Source: Thysanoteuthis rhombus
Taxonomy: Eukaryota; Mollusca; Cephalopoda; Oegopsida; Thysanoteuthidae
Direction: 5' to 3'
Length of the DNA: 64,000 nt
NCBI GenBank assembly: GCA_963457665.1
Contig: OY735237.1
Coordinates: forward strand, 3,066,322-3,130,321
Shown here: positions 1,690-53,570 of the stretch, one piece after another
Position numbering within the stretch: position 1 is the stretch's first letter
Layout: every line of letters starts with the position of its first letter
Notes under the pieces: generated by a model
What the model was told of the DNA's origin: nothing
Databases searched by the model: none
The model's input: only the letters and a program-made list of their open reading frames with translations
Made by a program: the position numbers and the translations under genes

Positions 1690-1831
1690 TACAAATATTT
1701 GTGGACATTGAGAGACTATGCATCTTCATATTTAAGAACATATTTGAAAACTCACAGTCTGGAGAAGACCCATTTTTGTGCAAAAAGTGTTGATCAGCCT
1801 ATTTAAAAAAAAATCACATTTGAGAAAGAAC
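1690..1831 (+). pseudogene. Broken finger upstream of the nine-finger array
   Basis: Finger-like remains precede the array. A THSLEKTHFC-type linker and cysteine near 1750-1780 is followed by a stop. A SHLRKNM segment then leads into the intact array after a frame change. The array was longer at its N-terminal side and has lost its original frame connection to the exon start at 1601. Confidence 0.5.
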
Positions 1832-2677
1832 ATGCAAAGACAGACGAAAGAAAGACGTTACCCTTGTGAGGTGTGTGGATCAGCATTTTCAAAAAGTTCA
1901 ACTTTGAAGAGACACTTGCAAACACACACTGGAGAGAAACCTTTCTCTTGTCAAGTGTGTGGATCAACATTTGCAAGAAGTTCTGATGTGGAGAGACACA
2001 TGCGAACACACACTGGAGAGAAACCCTATTCTTGTCAAGTGTGTGGATCTGCATTTTCACAGGGATCAGCTCTGAAGACACACTTGCAGATTCACACTGG
2101 AGAGAAACCCTACTCTTGTCAAGTGTGTGGATCTGCATTTTCACAGAGTTCAGCTTTGAAGACACATGTCCAGATTCACACTGGAGAGAAACCCTACTCT
2201 TGTCAATTATGTGGATCAGCATTTTCAAGAAATTTAGCCCTGAAGACACACATGCAGATTCACACTGGAGAGAAACCCTTTACTTGTCATGTGTGTGGAT
2301 CAGCATTTTCAAATAGTTCAAATTTGAAAAGCCACATGCGAACGCACACTGGAGAAAAGCCTTTCTTATGTCAAGTGTGTAGGAAAGCATTTTCACGAAG
2401 ATCAGATATGAAGAGACACCTGCGAATACACACAGGAGAGAAACCCTTTCCTTGTCAAGTGTGCGGATCTGCATTTTCACAAAGTTCAGCTTTGAAGTCA
2501 CACATGCAGATTCACATCGAAGGTAAACCATTCTCTTGTGAAGTGTGTGGATCATCATTTTCACGGTGCTCAACTTTGAAGAGACACATGCAAACACACA
2601 ATGAAGAAAAACAAATTTTTCAAAGTCAAGCCCAAGACACTGATGGTAAACCTTGTTCTCTTAAAGAGTTTTGTTGA
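1832..2677 (+). CDS. C2H2 zinc-finger protein, nine fingers
   Basis: This frame encodes 281 residues from the first ATG; the open frame extends upstream to 1778 only through a GTG. Nine consecutive fingers fit C-x2-C-x12-H-x3-H at a strict 28-residue period. They are joined by TGEKP linkers, except before finger 9 (IEGKP). Finger scaffolds read YSCQVCGSAFS, while helix positions -1,2,3,6 vary: KSTR, RSDR, QSAT, QSAT, RLAT, NSNS, RSDR, QSAS, RSTR. Proteins of this class are nuclear sequence-specific DNA-binding factors. No KRAB, ZAD, SCAN or BTB domain is visible. The start Met falls inside a broken finger whose two zinc His have become Asn and Gln, so the true N-terminus may come from an upstream exon or the locus may be decaying. 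AATAAA at 2709-2714 is a plausible polyadenylation signal. Confidence 0.8.
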   Translation: MQRQTKERRYPCEVCGSAFSKSSTLKRHLQTHTGEKPFSCQVCGSTFARSSDVERHMRTHTGEKPYSCQVCGSAFSQGSALKTHLQIHTGEKPYSCQVCGSAFSQSSALKTHVQIHTGEKPYSCQLCGSAFSRNLALKTHMQIHTGEKPFTCHVCGSAFSNSSNLKSHMRTHTGEKPFLCQVCRKAFSRRSDMKRHLRIHTGEKPFPCQVCGSAFSQSSALKSHMQIHIEGKPFSCEVCGSSFSRCSTLKRHMQTHNEEKQIFQSQAQDTDGKPCSLKEFC

Positions 2678-11329: not shown

Positions 11330-11955
11330 GTTTCTGCCGACACGAATATGTGGAGGGATCTACCAGGATAAAAGATGTAGAGATAGGAAGGATGAAGGGA
11401 AAGGAATGTCACCAAGTAAATGTGAGATAGAGTCTAAAGAATCTCCGTCAGTTTGGTCATCCTAGTTGTAGCCACTATGAAGTTATCTTAGGAAGTCCGA
11501 CCTAACTACGATGAGAGTGCTTAACTTAGATAGGATGTGTTCTTGAGATGAATGTGTGATGATGCGTGTGTAAAAAGAAAGTGTGTATAAAAACTATATT
11601 AACTATCCTAACTAAAGAGAGAGAGGGAGAGAGAGAGAGAAGAGACGAGCTTTCCTCAAGGTCGTCTGAACAGAGAGAGGGAGAGTTTACGGCCACAGTT
11701 TTAATACCGTAAAGATAACGATCAGTTATCTTATTGGTAGTTCTGTGTGACGTCAAAGAGGAAGCGACAAGGAATTTACCATTTCTACGGAGATGTAGGG
11801 TTTAGCAAGTAGATCCCTGGGGCAGATAGCTCCGTATATGTATGGTTTTCTTTTGCTGGAAAAGGTGGGCACTACACTTGCATTGTAGCTGTCTAAGATG
11901 ATGAAGTTTATTTTATGGCAAAAGGTTAGGGTGGGGGTGCACTCGTTACAGCCCT
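11330..11955 (-). mobile_element. Second LTR-like sequence (different family, candidate)
   Basis: Read on the minus strand, TGTAACGAGTGCACCCCC begins near 11955 and TGTAGTGCCCACC near 11877; both are typical LTR starts. A TGACGTCAC site follows near 11755, then TATTAAAAC near 11700 and long GA/CT tracts (11605-11640, 11670-11685). The order of CRE-like site, TATA-like box and CT tract resembles the first LTR family, but the sequences do not align well. Boundaries are uncertain and no coding region is attached. Confidence 0.4.
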
Positions 11956-11979: not shown

Positions 11980-14099
11980 GTATAAACTAAAGTTTGTTGA
12001 ATTCATCTTTATGAAATATTTCTCTTGATTTTCCATAGTGTCGTACTTTTGTAAGTACCGTTTTACGGTAACATGACTACCGTTATTCATATGCATCAGT
12101 TTACGTCAAGTCGAAGGTACGTAACTCAATACTGTAATAGATTTAAAAAATGTCAAGTTGTGGTTAATAAGACGAAGTGTGTAGATAATGTCTGCTTCTT
12201 GCGTCTTTCAACTTTATCTATCTTCATTCATTGTAATTCGGTATTTCATGATAATTTCAACGATGTCTGCAACCATCAATCATAACCATAACTTTACAGC
12301 CAAATAATTATACATTTTTTCCTTTCATGCACGTCTTAATCTCAATCTAAATTTATAGCTGGACTAGATAATGAATATAACATAAAAAAAATTGTTCCCA
12401 TATAAAATAATCATACCGTAAAAATGAAATATTCGATTTATAAGATTTAAAAATTTATACTCCTATGAAAAAAAACCTCGGGAAGATCTCACAGTCCTTT
12501 TTGGAACTGAACTTCATTGACCAATGTCTCGTGGCTAGGTGAGTGAGATGATATTGCTGTTCGTGAGCAATAATCAAAATATTTATTGTAAGAGATGTTC
12601 TGTATTTTTATTCTATGACATTCATTCGAAAACGGCGATGTGTGAAAAAGGGGGAAACCAGAAAATCAAGTTGATCTCGTATCCTGTACTTTTGAAAAAA
12701 TGGGTTTTCTCTTTTACGACCAAGTTCCAAAAGTTCTTGTCTGTTACAAATGATTTTAGTACAAGGTCATTTTGAAGTTAGAAAATCCCCACTTCTCGAT
12801 CGTCTGTAGCTAAAGCTGTTATATTTACGCGGTGAGGAGATTTGAGGTAAATGTGATTATTGGGTTAATTTTTCTCTCGAATTTCTTCTGAGGCTATTAA
12901 AGATAGATTAGAAATGGCGATGGATTAAAGTCACCAGCACCAATCACTCTCTTCGTACTTGGGAAACGCGTGATAGACTTCATCTTCTGGTGAGGAATCC
13001 ATGAAACAAGTTTAGCTTTAAATGAATTTATAGCGCCTATTATTCTAGCCAGTGCCAGGTTTAGAACAGGTAATTGCCCGGGGCCCTCTTTGAACAAAAA
13101 TATAATAATTATAAAATTGGATCCTTTGATAAGAAATAAAATTATTTATTACAGCTTGGAATTTATTTTAGAATTGAATTCATTAAAATGCCTTCAATTG
13201 TTTTAAATCATTCAATAAAATTACTGTTTGTAATTCGAGTCTTAAGTATTTGGATTACGGGTTACGAATATGGATTTTAGATATTTACATGTATACACGT
13301 TTTTACTTATTACAGATGTATAACTCGGACCTTCATGAGTAATTTTTTTTGATTCGCCGTTTATTTCAATTTCTGTGTATGAGGCGCCCATCTGTTTGCC
13401 GACCACACAGAACCACTTTTAGCAGCAGCTTTTTATGAATACAGCGGACTATTATCGATGTTTGGTGTCATCTGAGCCACGAGCTGAAACCTAGTGATTC
13501 TTTCATTAGCGAACGCGACATTGAGTTGACTGGGATCCGATGAAAAGAAACATAGAAAAGAATTCTATTTTCTTCATTGGGCTGTCGACGTATTAATGTA
13601 CCAACATATATTCACAGTAAATCACAGAAGTCACCCACATTACCATATGTATGGAATATATTACACATACGTATCTGAATAGACTGAATACTTCTGAATA
13701 TTCAACTTCGTCACTTTTTGTTATCAGCTCTAGGAGTATCAGAGCAGTACTTTTTATAATCCGACGTATGAGTTGAAGTACCAAGAGCACACAATCTCTT
13801 ATCTGAAATTCAGAAAAGCCAAGAGTTTTCCCGTGGATGTCGTCTGATCACCAAAGCTCACTTTCGGTTTGAATCATTAACCAACGCGACCAATGTATTA
13901 CAAGTTGTATATCAGTGATCTTACTAGTCAGACGGACATTTGCTGCTCATGGATATTCTGTTTATTTTTTGGTGAATCATTTATTTTAAAGACAATAAAT
14001 GATTTAGAGAGTCTTCTTTTCTCAGATTCTGATCGGTGATTCGTTCAGTCATCTTCGTGTGGTTATCCAATTCGAAAGTTTGGCTTGAAATCAGTTTAT
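11980..14099. other. Intergenic DNA upstream of a candidate promoter module
   Basis: No gene supported. A short TCAGACGGACATTTGC string near 13930 recurs near 49268, so the duplication of the module may begin somewhat upstream of 14100. Confidence 0.45.
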
Positions 14100-14640
14100 T
14101 ACATTTTTAGCCATAAAGTCAGCCAAAAGTAGAGAGTAATAGCCATTTTGAGAGATTCTTTTTAGCAAAATACGAAACGAAGAATATTCACTCTAACATA
14201 CAAGAGAGAGGAAGGGTCTCACTGTCGGGCTTTGCGGTAAATCAATATCCCACTTTTTTCATAATAGAGAAACAATCAAAGTTTACTCATTCGATTATTT
14301 TGTAAGTATTTGAAGCCTTATTTTATTAATTAACTTGAATAAATAGTTGTAAATTCAATATTTTCAATGACCGCTTCATATTCGAGTTTACTACTGCTTG
14401 TCCCATAATAATCGTTACATTTGCTCAGAGAAATGTATATAGAAGTGTAAATATTATGGGACAGCATTAGATACATCCATTCAGTCACTTCATTGTTTAT
14501 CGTTATAATTCATGTTGAATAATTTAATAAAATTTGTTGGCGATAGTTTAATAATTCGATTGGTAAGTTTCCTATTTATGTTCTCGTTGTGTTTAATTGA
14601 TTAGGTATTGACATGAAAAATCAGGTATTGTCTATTTTAG
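14100..14640 (+). promoter_or_regulatory. Candidate 5' exon/promoter module, copy A
   Basis: Conserved with 48885-49940 (+) and 48085-48400 (-). Shared anchors are TACGAAACGAAGAA (14170s), a CATTCGAT-ATTTT exon end followed by GTAAGTATTT (donor at 14302), TGACCGCTTCATATTCGA (14368-14385), AATAAAAT near 14527 and a second donor GGTAAGTTT (14562). Two conserved donors in paralogous copies, with finger exons downstream in the same orientation, suggest a non-coding first exon. The nearest + strand acceptor exon of the family is at 22440, giving an intron of about 8 kb. No ATG-led frame is obvious. An alternative is an old non-coding repeat. Confidence 0.5.
14399..14463. repeat. 65-bp inverted repeat within module A
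   Basis: TGTCCCATAATA at the left end is matched by TATTATGGGACA at the right, with a further pairing of CGTTACA against TGTAAAT. This makes a near-complete hairpin. A related foldback lies at the same place in module B (49724-49774). The minus-strand module C lacks it, so it looks like a small foldback insertion. Confidence 0.6.
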
Positions 14641-22581: not shown

Positions 22582-22773
22582 TCAAGTGTGCAGATCTGTA
22601 TTTTACATAGTACAATTGAAAAAAAAAACCCTCTTCACACTTAGTCTATAAATCAGTTCTTTCATTGAATTGTCATTTGAAAGTACTTTTGCGAACACAA
22701 ACTGGGGAGAAACCTTTTTGAGATTAAATTGTGTGAATCAGCCTTTTCAAAAGATTAAATTTGGAGAAAAAAC
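22582..22773 (+). pseudogene. Decayed fingers upstream of the thirteen-finger array
   Basis: Finger fragments persist in shifting frames: QVCRSVF followed by VQLK near 22590-22620, a TGEKP-derived GGGAGAAACC near 22712, and a CESAFSKD-type piece near 22734. At least two fingers were lost by indels and stops. An in-frame TAA lies just upstream of the ATG at 22774. Confidence 0.6.
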
Positions 22774-23913
22774 ATGCAAACACATACTAGAGGGAAACTT
22801 TACTCTTGTGAAGTGTGTGGATCAGTATTTCCACAGAATTCTAGTTTGAAGGAACACATGCAAACACACTCTGAGGAAAAACCCTACTCTTGTGAAGTGT
22901 GTGGATCAGTATTTTCAGTTAGGTCAAAATTGAAATTGCACATGCGAAAACACAATGCAAAGAAACCCTATGCTTGTGAAGTGTGTGGATCAGCATTTTC
23001 ACATAATAGTTATTTGGAGAGACACATACGAACACACACAGGAGAGAAACCATTCACTTGTCAAGTGTGCGGATCGGTATTTTCACGGAATTCTCATATG
23101 AAGACACATATGAATATACACACTGGACAGAAACCCTACTTTTGTGAAGTGTGTGGATCAAGATTTTCAACTAGTTCACATTTGAAATCACACATGCGAA
23201 CACATACTGGACAGAAACCCTTCTCTTGTGAACTGTGTGGATCAGCATTTTCTCAGAATCATAGTTTGAAATCCCATATGCGAACGCATACTGGACAGAA
23301 ACCTTACTCTTGTGAGGTGTGCGGATCAGCATTTTCACAGAATCATAGTTTGAAAGAACATATGCGAACACACACTGGGGAGAAACCTTACTCTTGTGAA
23401 GTGTGTGGAGCAACATTTTCACTTGGATCTAATTTGGAGAGACACATGCGAACACACACTGGAGAGAAACCCTTTTCTTGTGAAGTATGTGGATCTTCAT
23501 TTTCACGGAATTCTGTTCTGAAGCAACATATGCGAACACACACTGGAGAGAAACCCTTCTCCTGCGAAGTATGTGGCTCAGCGTTTTCACAGAATGGTAA
23601 TTTGGAAAGACACATGCGGACACATACTGGAGAAAAACCATTCTCTTGTCAAATGTGTGGCTCAGCATTTTCTGATAGTTCAAATTTAAAGGATCACTTG
23701 CGAATACACACTGGAGAGAAACCCTTCTCTTGTCAAGTGTGCGGATCAGCATTTCAACGGAATTTGCCATTAAAGATACATATGCGAACACACACTGGAG
23801 AGAAACCCTTCTCTTGTCAAGTGTGCAGATCTGCATTTTCACAGAATGGTAGTTTGAAGGAACACATACGAACACATATTCGCGAGAACTTATATTCTTG
23901 TCAAGTGTTTTGA
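22774..23913 (+). CDS. C2H2 zinc-finger protein, thirteen fingers
   Basis: 379 residues from ATG. Thirteen intact C-x2-C-x12-H-x3-H fingers occupy residues 10-368 at a 28-residue period. Linkers are mostly TGEKP, with TGQKP between fingers 4-5, 5-6 and 6-7. Helix positions -1,2,3,6 read QSSE, VSKL, HSYR, RSHT, TSHS, QHSS, QHSE, LSNR, RSVQ, QGNR, DSND, RLPI, QGSE, so specificity residues differ while the CEVCGSAFS scaffold is almost constant. Fingers 6 and 7 look recently duplicated. A fourteenth finger is cut after CQV by Cys-to-Phe and Gly-to-stop changes. The start Met is the HM of a finger, so initiation is unusual. The protein would be a nuclear DNA-binding factor; no effector domain is seen. 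AATAAA lies at 24058-24063. Confidence 0.82.
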   Translation: MQTHTRGKLYSCEVCGSVFPQNSSLKEHMQTHSEEKPYSCEVCGSVFSVRSKLKLHMRKHNAKKPYACEVCGSAFSHNSYLERHIRTHTGEKPFTCQVCGSVFSRNSHMKTHMNIHTGQKPYFCEVCGSRFSTSSHLKSHMRTHTGQKPFSCELCGSAFSQNHSLKSHMRTHTGQKPYSCEVCGSAFSQNHSLKEHMRTHTGEKPYSCEVCGATFSLGSNLERHMRTHTGEKPFSCEVCGSSFSRNSVLKQHMRTHTGEKPFSCEVCGSAFSQNGNLERHMRTHTGEKPFSCQMCGSAFSDSSNLKDHLRIHTGEKPFSCQVCGSAFQRNLPLKIHMRTHTGEKPFSCQVCRSAFSQNGSLKEHIRTHIRENLYSCQVF

Positions 23914-41689: not shown

Positions 41690-42510
41690 TCACTGTAAAG
41701 GAAACATCACACAATCCAGAAAAAATTCCCTTAGCATGCTTCTGTATGCCACAGCAAATGTGATTTTTATGAAAACAGAGATCTATATGCATTGCAAGAA
41801 TATGATTTCGCTATAGTGTGTGTTTACATTTGCTGCATTAAAGTTGACTTAAAAAATTTTTTAAGAGAGTACGACTTACCTTAAGTGTATATTAGTATAT
41901 GCTGTGCTGCGATGTCAATAAACTGATCCGTAGACTCTCCAGTGTGTAATCGCATATGTTGGTTCAAACCAGACTTCTGTGAAAAGGAAGAACCACACAC
42001 TTCACAAGAATATGGTTTCTCTCCAGTGTGTATTTGCTTATGAGAGTTTAAATTTGTTCTCTGTGAAAAAAAAGATCCACACACTCCACAAGAATATGGC
42101 TTCTCACTAGTATGTGTTCGCATATGACACACCAAAATTGACTTCTGTGAAAAAGAAGAACCACACACTTTACAAAAATATGATTTCTCTCCAGTGTGTA
42201 ATCGCATATGTTGGTTCAAACCAGATTTCTGTGAAAGGAAGAACCACACACTTCACAAAAATATGGTTTCTCTCCAGTATGTGTTCGCATATGACCAATC
42301 AAATCTGCCTTGCGTAAGGAGGGAGAGCCACACACTTTACATGTATAGGACTTCTTTCTAGTGGGTGTTTACATATGTTCGATCAAACCTGAATTCACAG
42401 GGAAAGAAGAGCCACACACTTCACAAGAATAAGGTTTTTCTACAGTGTTTGTCTGCATATTGTTCTAAATCTGACTTTTATGAAACAGAAGACCAATATA
42501 CATCACAAAA
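41690..42510 (-). pseudogene. C2H2 zinc-finger pseudogene, about seven fingers
   Basis: From 42510 downward: a finger missing one Cys (CDVYWSSVS); [15 protein letters not shown] ending in a stop instead of Arg; YTCKVCGSPSLRKAD with HMRTH; then YFCEVCGSSFHR, where one missing T shifts the frame near 42236. The open frame 41881-42249 follows with the rest of that finger plus three complete ones (QKSILVCH, QRTNLNSH, QKSGLNQH helices) and ends HTGESTDQF...IYT. A last relic lies at 41700-41830. The scaffolds are well preserved, so inactivation is recent compared with the other relics. Confidence 0.75.
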
Positions 42511-43384
42511 AAATTTACAATTGATGCAATTGACCAAATTATGTAAGTTCATTGGATATTTCAGGGAAAAGAAGATCTACATATAGTGGGCCAAGAATTC
42601 AAAATATCTAAGAAAAAAAATCATTTCTTCTTATTATGGATTGGTCTATATTCAATCTGCATAGAATTTCTCAACACACACTTGAATGGTTCAGCTAGTT
42701 CAGGACTTGGGCTATATCATTTTTAAAATTGTGAGAATCTCAAATTTGAACAGGCACATTATCAGATCATAAAGATAATCTTGATTTTATCAATAAACGA
42801 TGCTGTGAATGTGTAATCAAACTTTACGAACTGAAATGAATCTAGATTTTATGAAAAATACTTCAATTCTGACAAATTTTGTTAATCTAGGTAAAATAAC
42901 ATTCTTCCAGAAAAATCATCAGGAAGTTTTGGAAGAAATTTTTTTTTAGAATTGCTGAAAATTTTGATAGAAAAGTTAAAGTATCTTGAAGAGTGACAAG
43001 CATATCATATCACATATATTTCGACAAATACAGAAAAAAATGGACCAGAAACTATATCGGAGTGAGACTCTCAGCGCTTTTCTCTAGATCAAATCACACA
43101 AACACGACCCTCAAATTTTGTAGAGAATGAAGAGCTAATGATCACAACTATTTGTTCAGACAGTCACTTATTTAATCATCCAAGGAAATACAATACATTT
43201 GTAGAAAAACTTCCAGTAGATTGAATCAGAGGTATTGTATTATACATTGTTAAAATTCTAAAAAACATGGCTTCCTTGTTTTCATCTAATAAATGCTTCC
43301 AACAAGGTATCAAACACTATTATATGACTTATCAATCTATCAGTATGAGCCTATTTCAACTGTGACATGCGGCAGATGAATATC
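42511..43384. other. Non-coding DNA
   Basis: No gene recognised. Confidence 0.4.
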
Positions 43385-48084: not shown

Positions 48085-48400
48085 AATAGAAAACTTTCCA
48101 ACTGAATTATTAAAATATCATCAACAGATTTATTCAATTATTCAACATGGATTATAACGATAAACAATAAAGTGACTGAATGAATGTATAAAATATGAGT
48201 TAATTACAATCGAATATGAAGCGGTCATGGAAAAGACCGACTTTGTTACTATTTGTTGAGGTTAATTAATAAAATAAAGCTTTAAATACTTACAAGATGG
48301 TCGAATGCATAAACTTTAGTGGTTTGTGTCTTTGAAAAAGATGGGATGGATTAGGATTTACTGCGATAATCTGTTCGATGATTCAAGTCATTTTCGTTGC
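48085..48400 (-). promoter_or_regulatory. Candidate 5' exon/promoter module, copy C (minus strand)
   Basis: On the minus strand it carries TGCATTCGACCATCTT then GTAAGTATTTAAAGC (donor at 48288-48293). CCATGACCGCTTCATATTCG and CATTCAGTCACTTTATTG follow. The second donor of copies A and B reads GAAAGT here, so that splice site is lost. It points toward the minus-strand finger relics at 41.7-43.6 kb. It is head to head with copy B. Confidence 0.5.
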
Positions 48401-48884
48401 GCGGCGTCCATGTTGCATATGTCAACCTGAACAATGTTTCGGAATTGAAATTTTCGTACCCGGGTTGCCTGGTGGTTGGGGACATTTTTGGCCCAAAACA
48501 TGACCCATAACAGCTAAACGCAATATTTTTTATAAAAGCAATTATTTCTTCATTTATTTATCATGGATGGAATATTGAAAATCATGACTGTGCCGTTAAT
48601 TGTGAAGATATAAGACTTTCAAGTTGAAAACTTACATATCCATTAAGGGAGATAACTAACTTAAGTATGGAACAAATTTTCAAGCCAATGAAAACACGAA
48701 AAGAAAGAAAATGAATATTAATCTTCACTATCACAGTTATTTTATTTAAAAATCTGACTTAAACGAGTTTATAACACTTTTAGCGACAAAAGGGTTTCGA
48801 AAGTAGACAAGATTTAGCCAATTAAAACCATTTCAGATGCAGTTACAACCGAGAAATTTAATTATGAGTTGGTAATACTGAGTG
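48401..48884. promoter_or_regulatory. Spacer between divergent modules, possible bidirectional promoter
   Basis: About 0.5 kb between two head-to-head copies of the module. It includes a CpG-bearing patch (TTGCGCGGCGTCC near 48399) unlike the CpG-poor surroundings. No TATA box is obvious. Promoter function is inferred from position only. Confidence 0.35.
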
Positions 48885-49940
48885 AGATACGAAACGAAGA
48901 AAAATCATTCTAACGAGAAATGCGAGAGATACGAAAACCTCCGTTGTCATGTATCGCAGTAAATCTTTTTCAAATTCACAAACCACCAAATTTTATGCAT
49001 TCGATCATCTTGTAAGTATTTAAAGCTTTGTTTTATTAATCAACTTTAACAAATAGTAGCGAAGTCAGTCTTTTCCATGACCGCTTCATATTCGATTGGA
49101 CTACTCTAGGGACGATCACGGACCTCTGCCAAAGTGATTTGTGTCGATTAAAACGTATGTAACTCGGAATCTATTAATTGTACCATTGTAATCTTTGTGT
49201 TTATCAGTGGAGGAAAGATTGCAGAAAATTATCAGCTACGTTTTATGGTTGGCAAAATGTAGGCATTCAGACGGACATTTGCAAAAAAGCTACAGGTGTC
49301 GATTAAAACGTCTGTGACTTGAAATCTATCTATTGTACCATTGAAATCTTAGTGTCTCTCAGTTGAGGAAAGATTGCTGGAAATTATCAGCTGATTTTTT
49401 TTTTCTGTAGACAATATCAAACTGGAGATAACTGGGCTTGAAAACTTGTGTACATTTGTGACTTGACTGACTAATAGAAATAGCATGGTCACATTTCAGC
49501 CTGATTTTCATGCAAATTGCACCCCCAAAATTTGCTAGTAGGACAATTTCTATAAAAGTTTTTTTTAAGGATATGAACGTTTTTTAATGAATTTTCCAAT
49601 GAGAATGGTATTTTGTAAGAAAATACCATGGATCTTTTTTTCTAATTTACCCCACACGCTCATTTTCATGTTTTAATAACCCATTCTATATTAGTATCAG
49701 CCTTACCATATTACAACTTTAACTGTCCCATAATAATTGTTACATAATTATGGAGAAATGTAACAATTAATATGAGATTTATATTCATACATTCATGCGG
49801 TCAATTTATTGTCTATCATAATAATCCATGTTGAAAAATTGAATAAAATTTGTTTACAATAGTTAAATGATTTGGTCGGTAAGTTTTCTTTTCATTTTTG
49901 ATAGAGTTTAACCATTCAGGAGTTGAAATAAAAAATTGCA
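48885..49940 (+). promoter_or_regulatory. Candidate 5' exon/promoter module, copy B (plus strand)
   Basis: It has TACGAAACGAAGAA, TATGCATTCGATCATCTT then GTAAGTATTTAAAGC (donor 49012), CCATGACCGCTTCATATTCG (49075-49094), and GGTCGGTAAGTTTTC (second donor 49879). Relative to copies A and C it has about 600 bp inserted at 49105-49720, which includes a 155-bp tandem duplication. The nearest + strand exon of the family is the relic at 53440. Confidence 0.5.
49141..49395. repeat. 155-bp-period tandem duplication
   Basis: Units start at 49141 and 49296 with GTGTCGATTAAAACGT, then TTGTACCATTG-AATCTT, and GAGGAAAGATTGC-GAAA ATTATCAGCT. They lie inside the extra sequence carried by module B only. Confidence 0.75.
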
Positions 49941-50689: not shown

Positions 50690-52135
50690 TGGCATGATCT
50701 TGGACATTGCAGGTTATCTCCCTCAGATGGAGGGACTATCATAGGTCTTCTGATCAGTTATCACCTGCCTCAAGTTGGGTAGCCCCCAGCCTGTAAGGTG
50801 CAATAGGTGCTTAGAGCTACGGGAAAGTCTGAAAGGAAACTATAATCCTTCCTCCAAACTAAAAAGAAAGAAGGATGCGACCACCAAGCTTACGACAATC
50901 AAGGTGGAACATCAGGGCATTGTCTTTGCCTCTCTAACAATCCTTAATTGACAAAGTGAGGAAACTAGCCTTCATCAATCAAGAGACTGTGTTGACATAG
51001 CTGTACCACAGGACGCTGGACTCTCATCAAGCGGCAGCCTCAGAGAATTGGAATACGCATTCTTAGGGTAGGAGCCAAAGAAACAATGACTTCACAGTGT
51101 TGGATTTGCAGTGAGAAAACTCTTTGCTGTCTTCAGTCGAACTACTATCTGAAGACACAGAGAGTCCTCTCTCTCCATCTCCTCACCTCCAGGCCAAGAG
51201 TACATCTTATCATCTATGCACTGACCCTTCTCTTGAGCTGAGGTGACAGCTGCATGAATGGGAGCCGATTACGACATCACCCCGAGCAGCTGTGGCCACT
51301 GTGGCATGGGCAAGCTAAGTTAGAATGGATGGCAGTTACTGGAGCTATGCCCTTACCATGATCTCTGTATAACCAATACATTCTTCTCTACTTAATTCAA
51401 CCCCTGTGTATCCTGATGGCGTCCCAGATCCAAAGAGTGACATCAACTGGATCTCATCATCACCAGCTGAAGTGCATTCTCACTACTCACAGCCTCCACA
51501 GTGCTGACTGCTACACTGACCACACCATAGTTGGCAAGAAGTTGTGACTTTAGCCCTAAACTAATCTACTGCTTGAAGCCAAAAGCATCGTCACAGCTTC
51601 GACTTCATCTTGCCAGAGTGTGTCTGTATCTTGATTCCATCATCTACAGCAGCATCTTGGCATCACTTAGAAGGATCATGTCCCAAACAAGAACTGATAC
51701 GAACAAGATTACTAGGCTTGTATACCTTGCTCGGCTGATGGCTGGTTCATGCCTGTCGCTCAGGTGAATACCCTAAGATATGTTGTACGCTAAGCTCGCA
51801 ACTGGTTCCAGACCTGCAAGAAGGCCTATCTTTCATTACATGACCTTAAAGCAGGCAATATTGTGGCCACACACTGCTGCAGATACAGATTTGCTATCAA
51901 GGCAGGTATCTTGATGAGTGAGAAGAGGAGAGGAAGCTGGTGGGAAGAGTGGAGAGGGGACACAGAGGGCAATAACAGCACCTACAGAACCAGGCGTGGA
52001 CTCCACCTGCAGAAATCACATCAGTGTTTGTTGCTCAGAAATATGGTTACACAGCTGCAGCAGGTCAACCATGGACAAATCCTTGGTGTGTGTTCTGTTG
52101 TCTTCCAACACTGGTAGGCCAACAATCTGAATGTA
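50690..52135 (+). mobile_element. Non-LTR retrotransposon remnant, endonuclease region
   Basis: Read through stops in several frames, it follows an apurinic-type endonuclease. VDIAVPQDAGLSSSGSLRE (family: DIAALSETRL...GSLxE) is at about 50990, HSVGFAVRKLF at about 51100, and a SLHLL..RPRVHLIIYA block at about 51170. GADYDITPSSCGHCGMGK is followed by LLELCPYHDLCITNTFFST at about 51270-51400, and RSKE-HQLDLIIT at about 51440. The reverse transcriptase is not seen; what lies from 51530 to 52135 is unassigned. The whole is dead. Confidence 0.7.
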
Positions 52136-53439: not shown

Positions 53440-53570
53440 ATGTTCCAGCAGATAAAACAACCTTATTATTTTAATTTAAAAAAAAGAAACCTTAGAATTC
53501 TCACTGGAGAGAAATTCTATGTTTGCCAACTGTGGGAACCATCCTTGCCATGAAGTCGAGGCAATATGTT
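53440..53570 (+). pseudogene. Relic terminal zinc-finger exon
   Basis: A 37-codon frame starts at the first base of the exon (ATGTTCCAG) and reads LTGEKFYVCQLWEPSLP before TGA at 53551. It is a finger start with an intact linker and first Cys, but the second Cys has become Trp. A KSRQYVQ trace follows in the same frame. It is the downstream partner of module B. Confidence 0.6.

Follow-up and report, generated by a model that had tools for sequence, protein, structure and literature searches.

A repeated donor-bearing module as the putative shared 5' end of C2H2 zinc-finger genes in the squid Thysanoteuthis rhombus

A donor-bearing module of about 330 bp, present in three copies at 14.2 kb (+), 48.95 kb (+) and 48.4 kb (-) of a 64,000-nucleotide stretch of the Thysanoteuthis rhombus genome (the window, C42:3066322-3130321), is probably the co-duplicated 5' end of a large coleoid family of C2H2 zinc-finger genes, comprising promoter, non-coding first exon and the start of intron 1. 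Most copies keep their splice donors and lie in the right orientation upstream of finger exons; the donor is surrounded by an island of conservation, and the two copies of the head-to-head pair have separate flanks. Each module would constitute the 5' end of one gene: a compact promoter, followed by a short non-coding first exon with a strong donor at its end and then by the conserved beginning of intron 1. From that donor, splicing would cross ~2-9 kb to reach a single downstream exon carrying the entire finger array. Transcription, start site, acceptor and splicing of these genes are inferred. The family would have expanded by duplication of whole units, each running from the promoter to the finger exon, to places on the same and on other chromosomes and on either strand, the finger exons and intron flanks diverging while the 5' module stayed similar.

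The module, its donor and its conservation

The initial annotation had described three copies of the module with donors at 14302, 49012 and 48293, and alignment and inspection of the donors located all of them. The segments 48207-48342 (-) and 48963-49098 (+) match at 91% over 136 bp, and the 14-kb copy matches both at 79% (14256-14395 with 48966-49105 over 140 bp; 14256-14390 with 48205-48339, inverted). Gapped matches lengthen the repeats (14170-14395/48887-49105; 14399-14638/49724-49953; 48077-48192/49899-49784). The donor reads CTT/GTAAGTATTT exactly at 49012 (+) and 48293 (-), and TTT/GTAAGTATTT at 14302. By itself the donor 13-mer is unremarkable in the window, with 6 matches at <=2 mismatches versus 5.9 expected; the long repeats are improbable.

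A profile of 329 positions was built from the copies and searched with nhmmer at a threshold of E<=1e-5. In 264 kb of C42, consisting of the 200 kb stretch C42:2840001-3040000 (positions in which are given below as offsets preceded by A) and the window, it recovered 20 module pieces; each of five short loci contributed a further one (short loci bearing modules or flank matches carry L numbers: L005, L018 and so on to L053). With the window stretch as query, 18 cluster copies (C42:2.83-3.25 Mb) matched the minus copy at 83-91% over 226-333 bp, and further cluster copies diverge more from that query than those 18. In the whole assembly (2.73 Gb, 514 contigs) the module was found at no fewer than 78 distinct places on 13 contigs; as 40 of 852, 40 of 239 and 40 of 195 first-look candidates were scored in these searches, this figure is a partial and biased sample.

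The nhmmer match of the minus copy runs from 48413 to 48087 over profile positions 2-329 (E 1.5e-101). Its putative non-coding exon 1, from the profile start to the donor, occupies 48294..48413 (-), with the donor GT at 48293; the donor and the conserved first ~205 bp of intron 1 cover 48087..48293, and the 5' flank, a putative promoter, lies at 48434..48613 (flank matches, E 7e-5 to 5e-16). In the plus copy of the pair (nhmmer 48952-49102, E 3.7e-44) the profile matches from position 47, so that the 3' part of the putative exon 1 is seen at 48952..49011 (+), preceded by a putative promoter flank at 48736..48951 (flank matches, E 1.5e-9 to 6e-4). It is followed by the donor GT at 49012 and a conserved intron start that repeats and profile place at 49012..49889, interrupted by extra sequence at ~49106-49723. 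The 14-kb copy (nhmmer 14198-14392, E 7.3e-39) comprises a 5' flank at 13981..14197 (+), which matches window positions 48736-48823 and L046, a putative exon 1 at 14198..14301 with the donor GT at 14302, and the donor with the conserved intron start at 14302..14574, inside which lies a hairpin at ~14399-14463.

Some further sequences were observed around the plus copy. The extra sequence interrupting it includes a 104-bp direct repeat with 155-bp spacing (49141-49399); the stretch 49260-49713 matches places on C12, C17, C22 and C25, and its sequence recurs in an intron of the next minus gene (L053:7507-7934). Within the intron of the plus gene unit, 50750-52070 is mostly 44-50% GC versus a background of ~30% GC and, judged from composition, looks like a decayed retroposon.

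All 29 aligned copies (an alignment that includes 6 of the 12 copies of the 200 kb stretch) have the donor GT, and it is also present in further copies checked, while 7 of the 29 lack GT at a second site resembling a donor, close to the end of the module. Over 47 groups of copies, the donor pattern was found in 37 under a strict and in 39 under a looser definition. The 8 misses of the looser pattern are two pieces without the donor (A:140505, A:159263), five that have a donor with different adjacent bases (among them L029, a locus identical to L034), and L053:8912, which reads CTC/GTAAGTACT. Among 13 copies of C42, mean identity is 0.87 over the last 60 bp on the exon side and 0.89 and 0.93 over the first and second 60 bp on the intron side. 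The peak thus falls at +60..+120 past the donor (0.935 versus a background of 0.69), within an island of ~0.76-0.93 that extends from -120 to +300 and reaches background by ~200 bp upstream and ~400 bp downstream.

Upstream of the exon, several copies have in common TGACGTCA, ACTTCC and AAAATGGACGC, motifs of the kind that we take to be known as CRE, ETS and YY1. TGACGTCA occurs 11 times in the 200 kb stretch versus 1.8 expected, and 7 of these occurrences are just upstream of modules, in 7 of the 12 copies found there. It is absent near the three copies of the window, whose sole occurrence is at 11748.

The hairpin of the 14-kb copy (14399-14463) is a MITE-like structure of ~70 bp with inverted arms of ~25 bp (GTCCCATAAT...ATTATGGGAC). 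It sits at an identical point of the module in 23 copies (the 14-kb copy and 22 among L018, L027 and L029-L052, L034 being omitted from this set), which points to common descent, and it is absent from 13 copies of a separate alignment. A selected RNA hairpin was rejected, with 7 double-change cells versus 8.6 in shuffles and no consensus fold; lacking covariation, the hairpin is read as an old MITE-like insertion inherited by descent, a fossil usable as a marker of that descent.

That the best-conserved stretch lies in the intron is more than a plain 5' exon requires and runs counter to the reading as a 5' end. The module could instead be conserved for another reason, as an intronic RNA or regulatory element or through homogenisation by gene conversion, without being a promoter or first exon. 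The identity peak beyond the donor would suit this explanation, and so would the near-star shape of the module tree (43 of the 47 groups, the 4 shorter than 200 nt being omitted and L029 and L034, one locus, both being kept). It does not account well for the invariance of the donor GT or the placement of TGACGTCA at the module start, and an RNA would fit poorly with a hairpin devoid of covariation and with the finding of no Rfam RNA in the window at the gathering threshold (no tRNA was found there either). We therefore regard it as unlikely, and a co-duplicated 5' end as the better account of the module.

Oriented linkage of modules to finger exons

In the window, an intact C2H2 array exon of 384 codons (22759..23913, +) lies 8.6 kb downstream of the 14-kb copy, and a disrupted C2H2 array (41743..42674, -; tblastn E 1.3e-50), with fingers in two frames, an in-frame stop and a frameshift, lies downstream of the minus copy. 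Behind the plus copy of the pair there is a relic finger exon at ~53440-53550 (+), which failed the tblastn search and was picked up by a motif scan; in it, an ATG and a single decayed finger follow an acceptor-like CTTCTTACAG. The proposal that every copy stands upstream of a finger exon or relic is consequently upheld at 14.2 kb and 48.4 kb and is weak at 48.95 kb, where it depends on this one-finger relic. Both genes behind the head-to-head pair look like pseudogenes. Another C2H2 array exon of the window (1748..2677, +) has a plus-strand module ~7 kb upstream, outside the window (C42:3060986-3061287). The Pfam families zf-H2C2_2 and zf-C2H2 were found in all three window ORFs scanned, and neither KRAB nor any other recognisable non-finger N-terminal domain was among the families listed for the window arrays (for the two long ones, the best 25 of 31 and the best 25 of 33 matches). 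A common or conserved splice acceptor was looked for at and upstream of the finger arrays and was not found.

The first exon downstream of the module is a same-strand finger exon, at <=9 kb, in 14 of the 15 copies in the 264 kb of C42, or in 13 of 15 if the weak 53.44-kb relic is excluded; random placement gave a mean of 4.5 linked copies and a maximum of 12 in 20,000 trials, and flipping the strands gave 4. The exception, A:140505, is a module truncated short of its donor, and it faces an exon on the wrong strand. Finger groups in the 200 kb stretch number 13 and are spread over both strands; 12 have at least 8 fingers, and 11 of these 12 arrays have a same-strand module <=9 kb upstream. An intact array on the minus strand there, at C42:2946924-2947994 (A:106924), has no recognisable module and a diverged N-terminus, and may use another 5' exon.

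Outside C42, five copies were sampled, and four of them (on C12, C30, C10 and C2) lead to 16, 12, 14 and 7 fingers, respectively, in the right orientation and 3-7 kb downstream; for the copy at C17:57330323, zero fingers were found in the 6 kb examined downstream (57332601-57338600). Place statistics were computed with the module places and 101 finger places taken from the matches listed, overlapping rows being merged by hand; the underlying finger-exon search had scored 107 of 8659 candidates and yielded 227 matches, part of them among those listed. On this basis, 23 of 42 non-C42 places are <=100 kb from a listed finger exon, versus a genome expectation of 0.5%, and 9 of the 42 have none of the listed finger exons within 300 kb. 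The C2 place, with an array 6 kb downstream, is one of those 9, and the list of finger exons is therefore incomplete. Against the reading as a 5' end stand the negative C17 sample, the intact array lacking a module, the wrong-strand exon at A:140505, the outcome of the acceptor search and these 9 places, apart from the one on C2. The check for genome copies dispersed without regard to finger genes nevertheless had the opposite outcome, locally and, with one negative sample, elsewhere. This oriented linkage of a repeated 5' module supports the earlier suggestion that the cluster grows by copying the 5' end together with the finger exon. Intron remnants common to gene units, at 62-73%, likewise point to duplication of whole gene units.

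An alternative sees in the module a mobile element of MITE, SINE or LTR type that came to rest near finger genes and whose donor is incidental. Its fairly sharp edges, its many copies on 13 contigs, the internal hairpin with inverted arms and the occurrence of part of the minus flank at two places without a recognised module could all be taken in that sense. A mobile element, however, would be expected to insert independently of the finger arrays, and the copies are instead paired one to one, and in orientation, with finger exons. The copies moreover have upstream flanks in common, intron remnants are shared between units, and the hairpin seems to be an insertion in its own right, within a module that 13 copies carry without it. 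An unsystematic look at the alignment edges of the module noticed neither terminal repeats nor target-site duplications. On the strength of the pairing, the shared flanks and intron remnants and the separate hairpin, a mobile origin appears highly improbable, and duplication of the 5' end with its gene remains the preferred reading.

Module places tend to approach contig ends. On the contigs whose lengths were used, 28 of 70 places lie within 1 Mb and 60 of 70 within 3.5 Mb of an end, the latter limit having been set after the places were seen; counted per 1-Mb bin, the figures are 9 of 19 and 13 of 19, versus 3% and 11% expected from the share of sequence. The contigs with end-enriched places are C42, C12, C47, C14, C10, C4 and C29.

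The head-to-head pair

The modules at 48.4 and 48.95 kb diverge and lie about 538-539 bp apart. The initial annotation took them to share one bidirectional promoter that fires into both halves of the cluster, a reading suggested by the divergent copies, the spacer of ~0.5 kb and its raised CpG. The CpG patch is real, with an observed/expected ratio of 1.66 at 48390-48470 (a stretch chosen by eye) versus 0.42 in the window, yet it is mild, since the 10 CGs of 48250-48499 are a count matched by 42 of 1275 sliding windows. In favor of the same reading, there is a second close divergent pair with a similar gap (629 bp) at C42:3138.5/3139.2 kb, with the donor in both copies. The minus copy of that second pair leads to 14 fingers.

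The make-up of the spacer argues otherwise. For the minus flank (48434-48613), matches lie directly upstream of modules in L049 (C30), L051 (C14), L044 (C12) and at A:156285-156396 (C42), as well as in a stretch of L005 ~370 bp upstream of the module there, and also at A:112404 and A:48239, neither of which is beside a recognised module. The plus flank (48736-48881) matches flanks directly upstream of the modules of L052 (C4), L046 (C40) and the 14-kb copy. In the ~120 bp between the two flanks, no match passed the flank search. Given that the two flanks recur separately beside other modules, the spacer is largely two 5' ends placed back to back, and for this reason a single bidirectional promoter was rejected. 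The spacers of the two close pairs are dissimilar (SW 27 versus a shuffle maximum of 34), the arrays downstream of both window copies are broken, and neither copy has TGACGTCA. In a list of 25 modules drawn from the genome searches, 5 of the 24 adjacent pairs are divergent and 2 of these are <1 kb apart (p ~0.07); the list omits the partial copies A:140505 and A:14704, the latter forming an extra divergent pair with a 1.9-kb gap. With this p value, close head-to-head pairs are not claimed as a feature of the family. Taken together, one promoter between 48.4 and 48.95 kb driving both cluster halves seems very unlikely.

A recent inverted duplication of one copy is also disfavoured, as the module tree does not pair the two copies, although the forks there are weak. 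According to the reading that we prefer, two units would have come to lie back to back, each with its 5' flank retained, and the genes downstream would now both be decaying.

Relation to other gene families and significance

Vertebrate KRAB zinc-finger clusters grow by in-situ duplication of whole gene units together with their 5' exons. The family described here would resemble them in the duplication of whole units and differs in that no KRAB was among the Pfam families listed for the window arrays. In clustered protocadherins, a short conserved promoter element is repeated at the 5' end of the members of a neural gene cluster; here, in contrast, each module pairs with its own finger exon and a constant exon was not seen.

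In agreement with the parts considered here of two accounts of coleoid C2H2 expansions (PMC12513265, PMC9068888), this genome has many finger-array genes, and a protocadherin supercluster and fingers are found on one chromosome, here C17. All the Cadherin_2 matches listed but three (C1, C10, C37) are on C17, at 17.7-45.9 Mb (150 of 293 candidates scored), the protocadherin-like ones on C17 being on the minus strand, and the C17 finger exons among the matches listed are mainly at 48.9-63.3 Mb. On chromosome 15 of Doryteuthis pealeii, protocadherins and C2H2 genes are reported at opposite ends (PMC9068888, in the part considered). Unlike the present analysis, the same parts of the coleoid accounts make no mention of a shared promoter or first exon, and words starting with promoter, intron or UTR have 0 occurrences in the main text of PMC12513265. 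According to a passage of that paper, duplicates in tandem may have regulatory elements in common and still belong to different co-expression modules (PMC12513265). The zebrafish FiNZ genes are described, in the sections considered, as a clustered finger family in which a subset has a common promoter architecture and one set is subtelomeric, the 'sharp peak' promoters having a TATA box (PMC10547256); several module starts in the squid, which belongs to a different phylum, carry instead TGACGTCA and other motifs. In the titles and abstract openings of the open-access papers that our searches listed, we found no description of cephalopod finger genes with a promoter or first exon in common, of bidirectional promoters in finger clusters, or of subtelomeric cephalopod finger genes.

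The C2H2 genes of cephalopods represent one of the large animal gene expansions. A shared 5' module would allow start sites to be annotated across the family and intact units to be sorted from broken ones, and it would also allow asking whether the promoter subtype, with TGACGTCA or lacking it, is predictive of expression. More tentatively, there is some chance, on the small side, that the module, and chiefly its conserved stretch inside intron 1, acts as a family-wide control element that sets or selects the expression of the dispersed cephalopod finger genes, by analogy with the shared promoter element of the clustered protocadherins. If so, regulation of the entire expansion could be approached through a single sequence.
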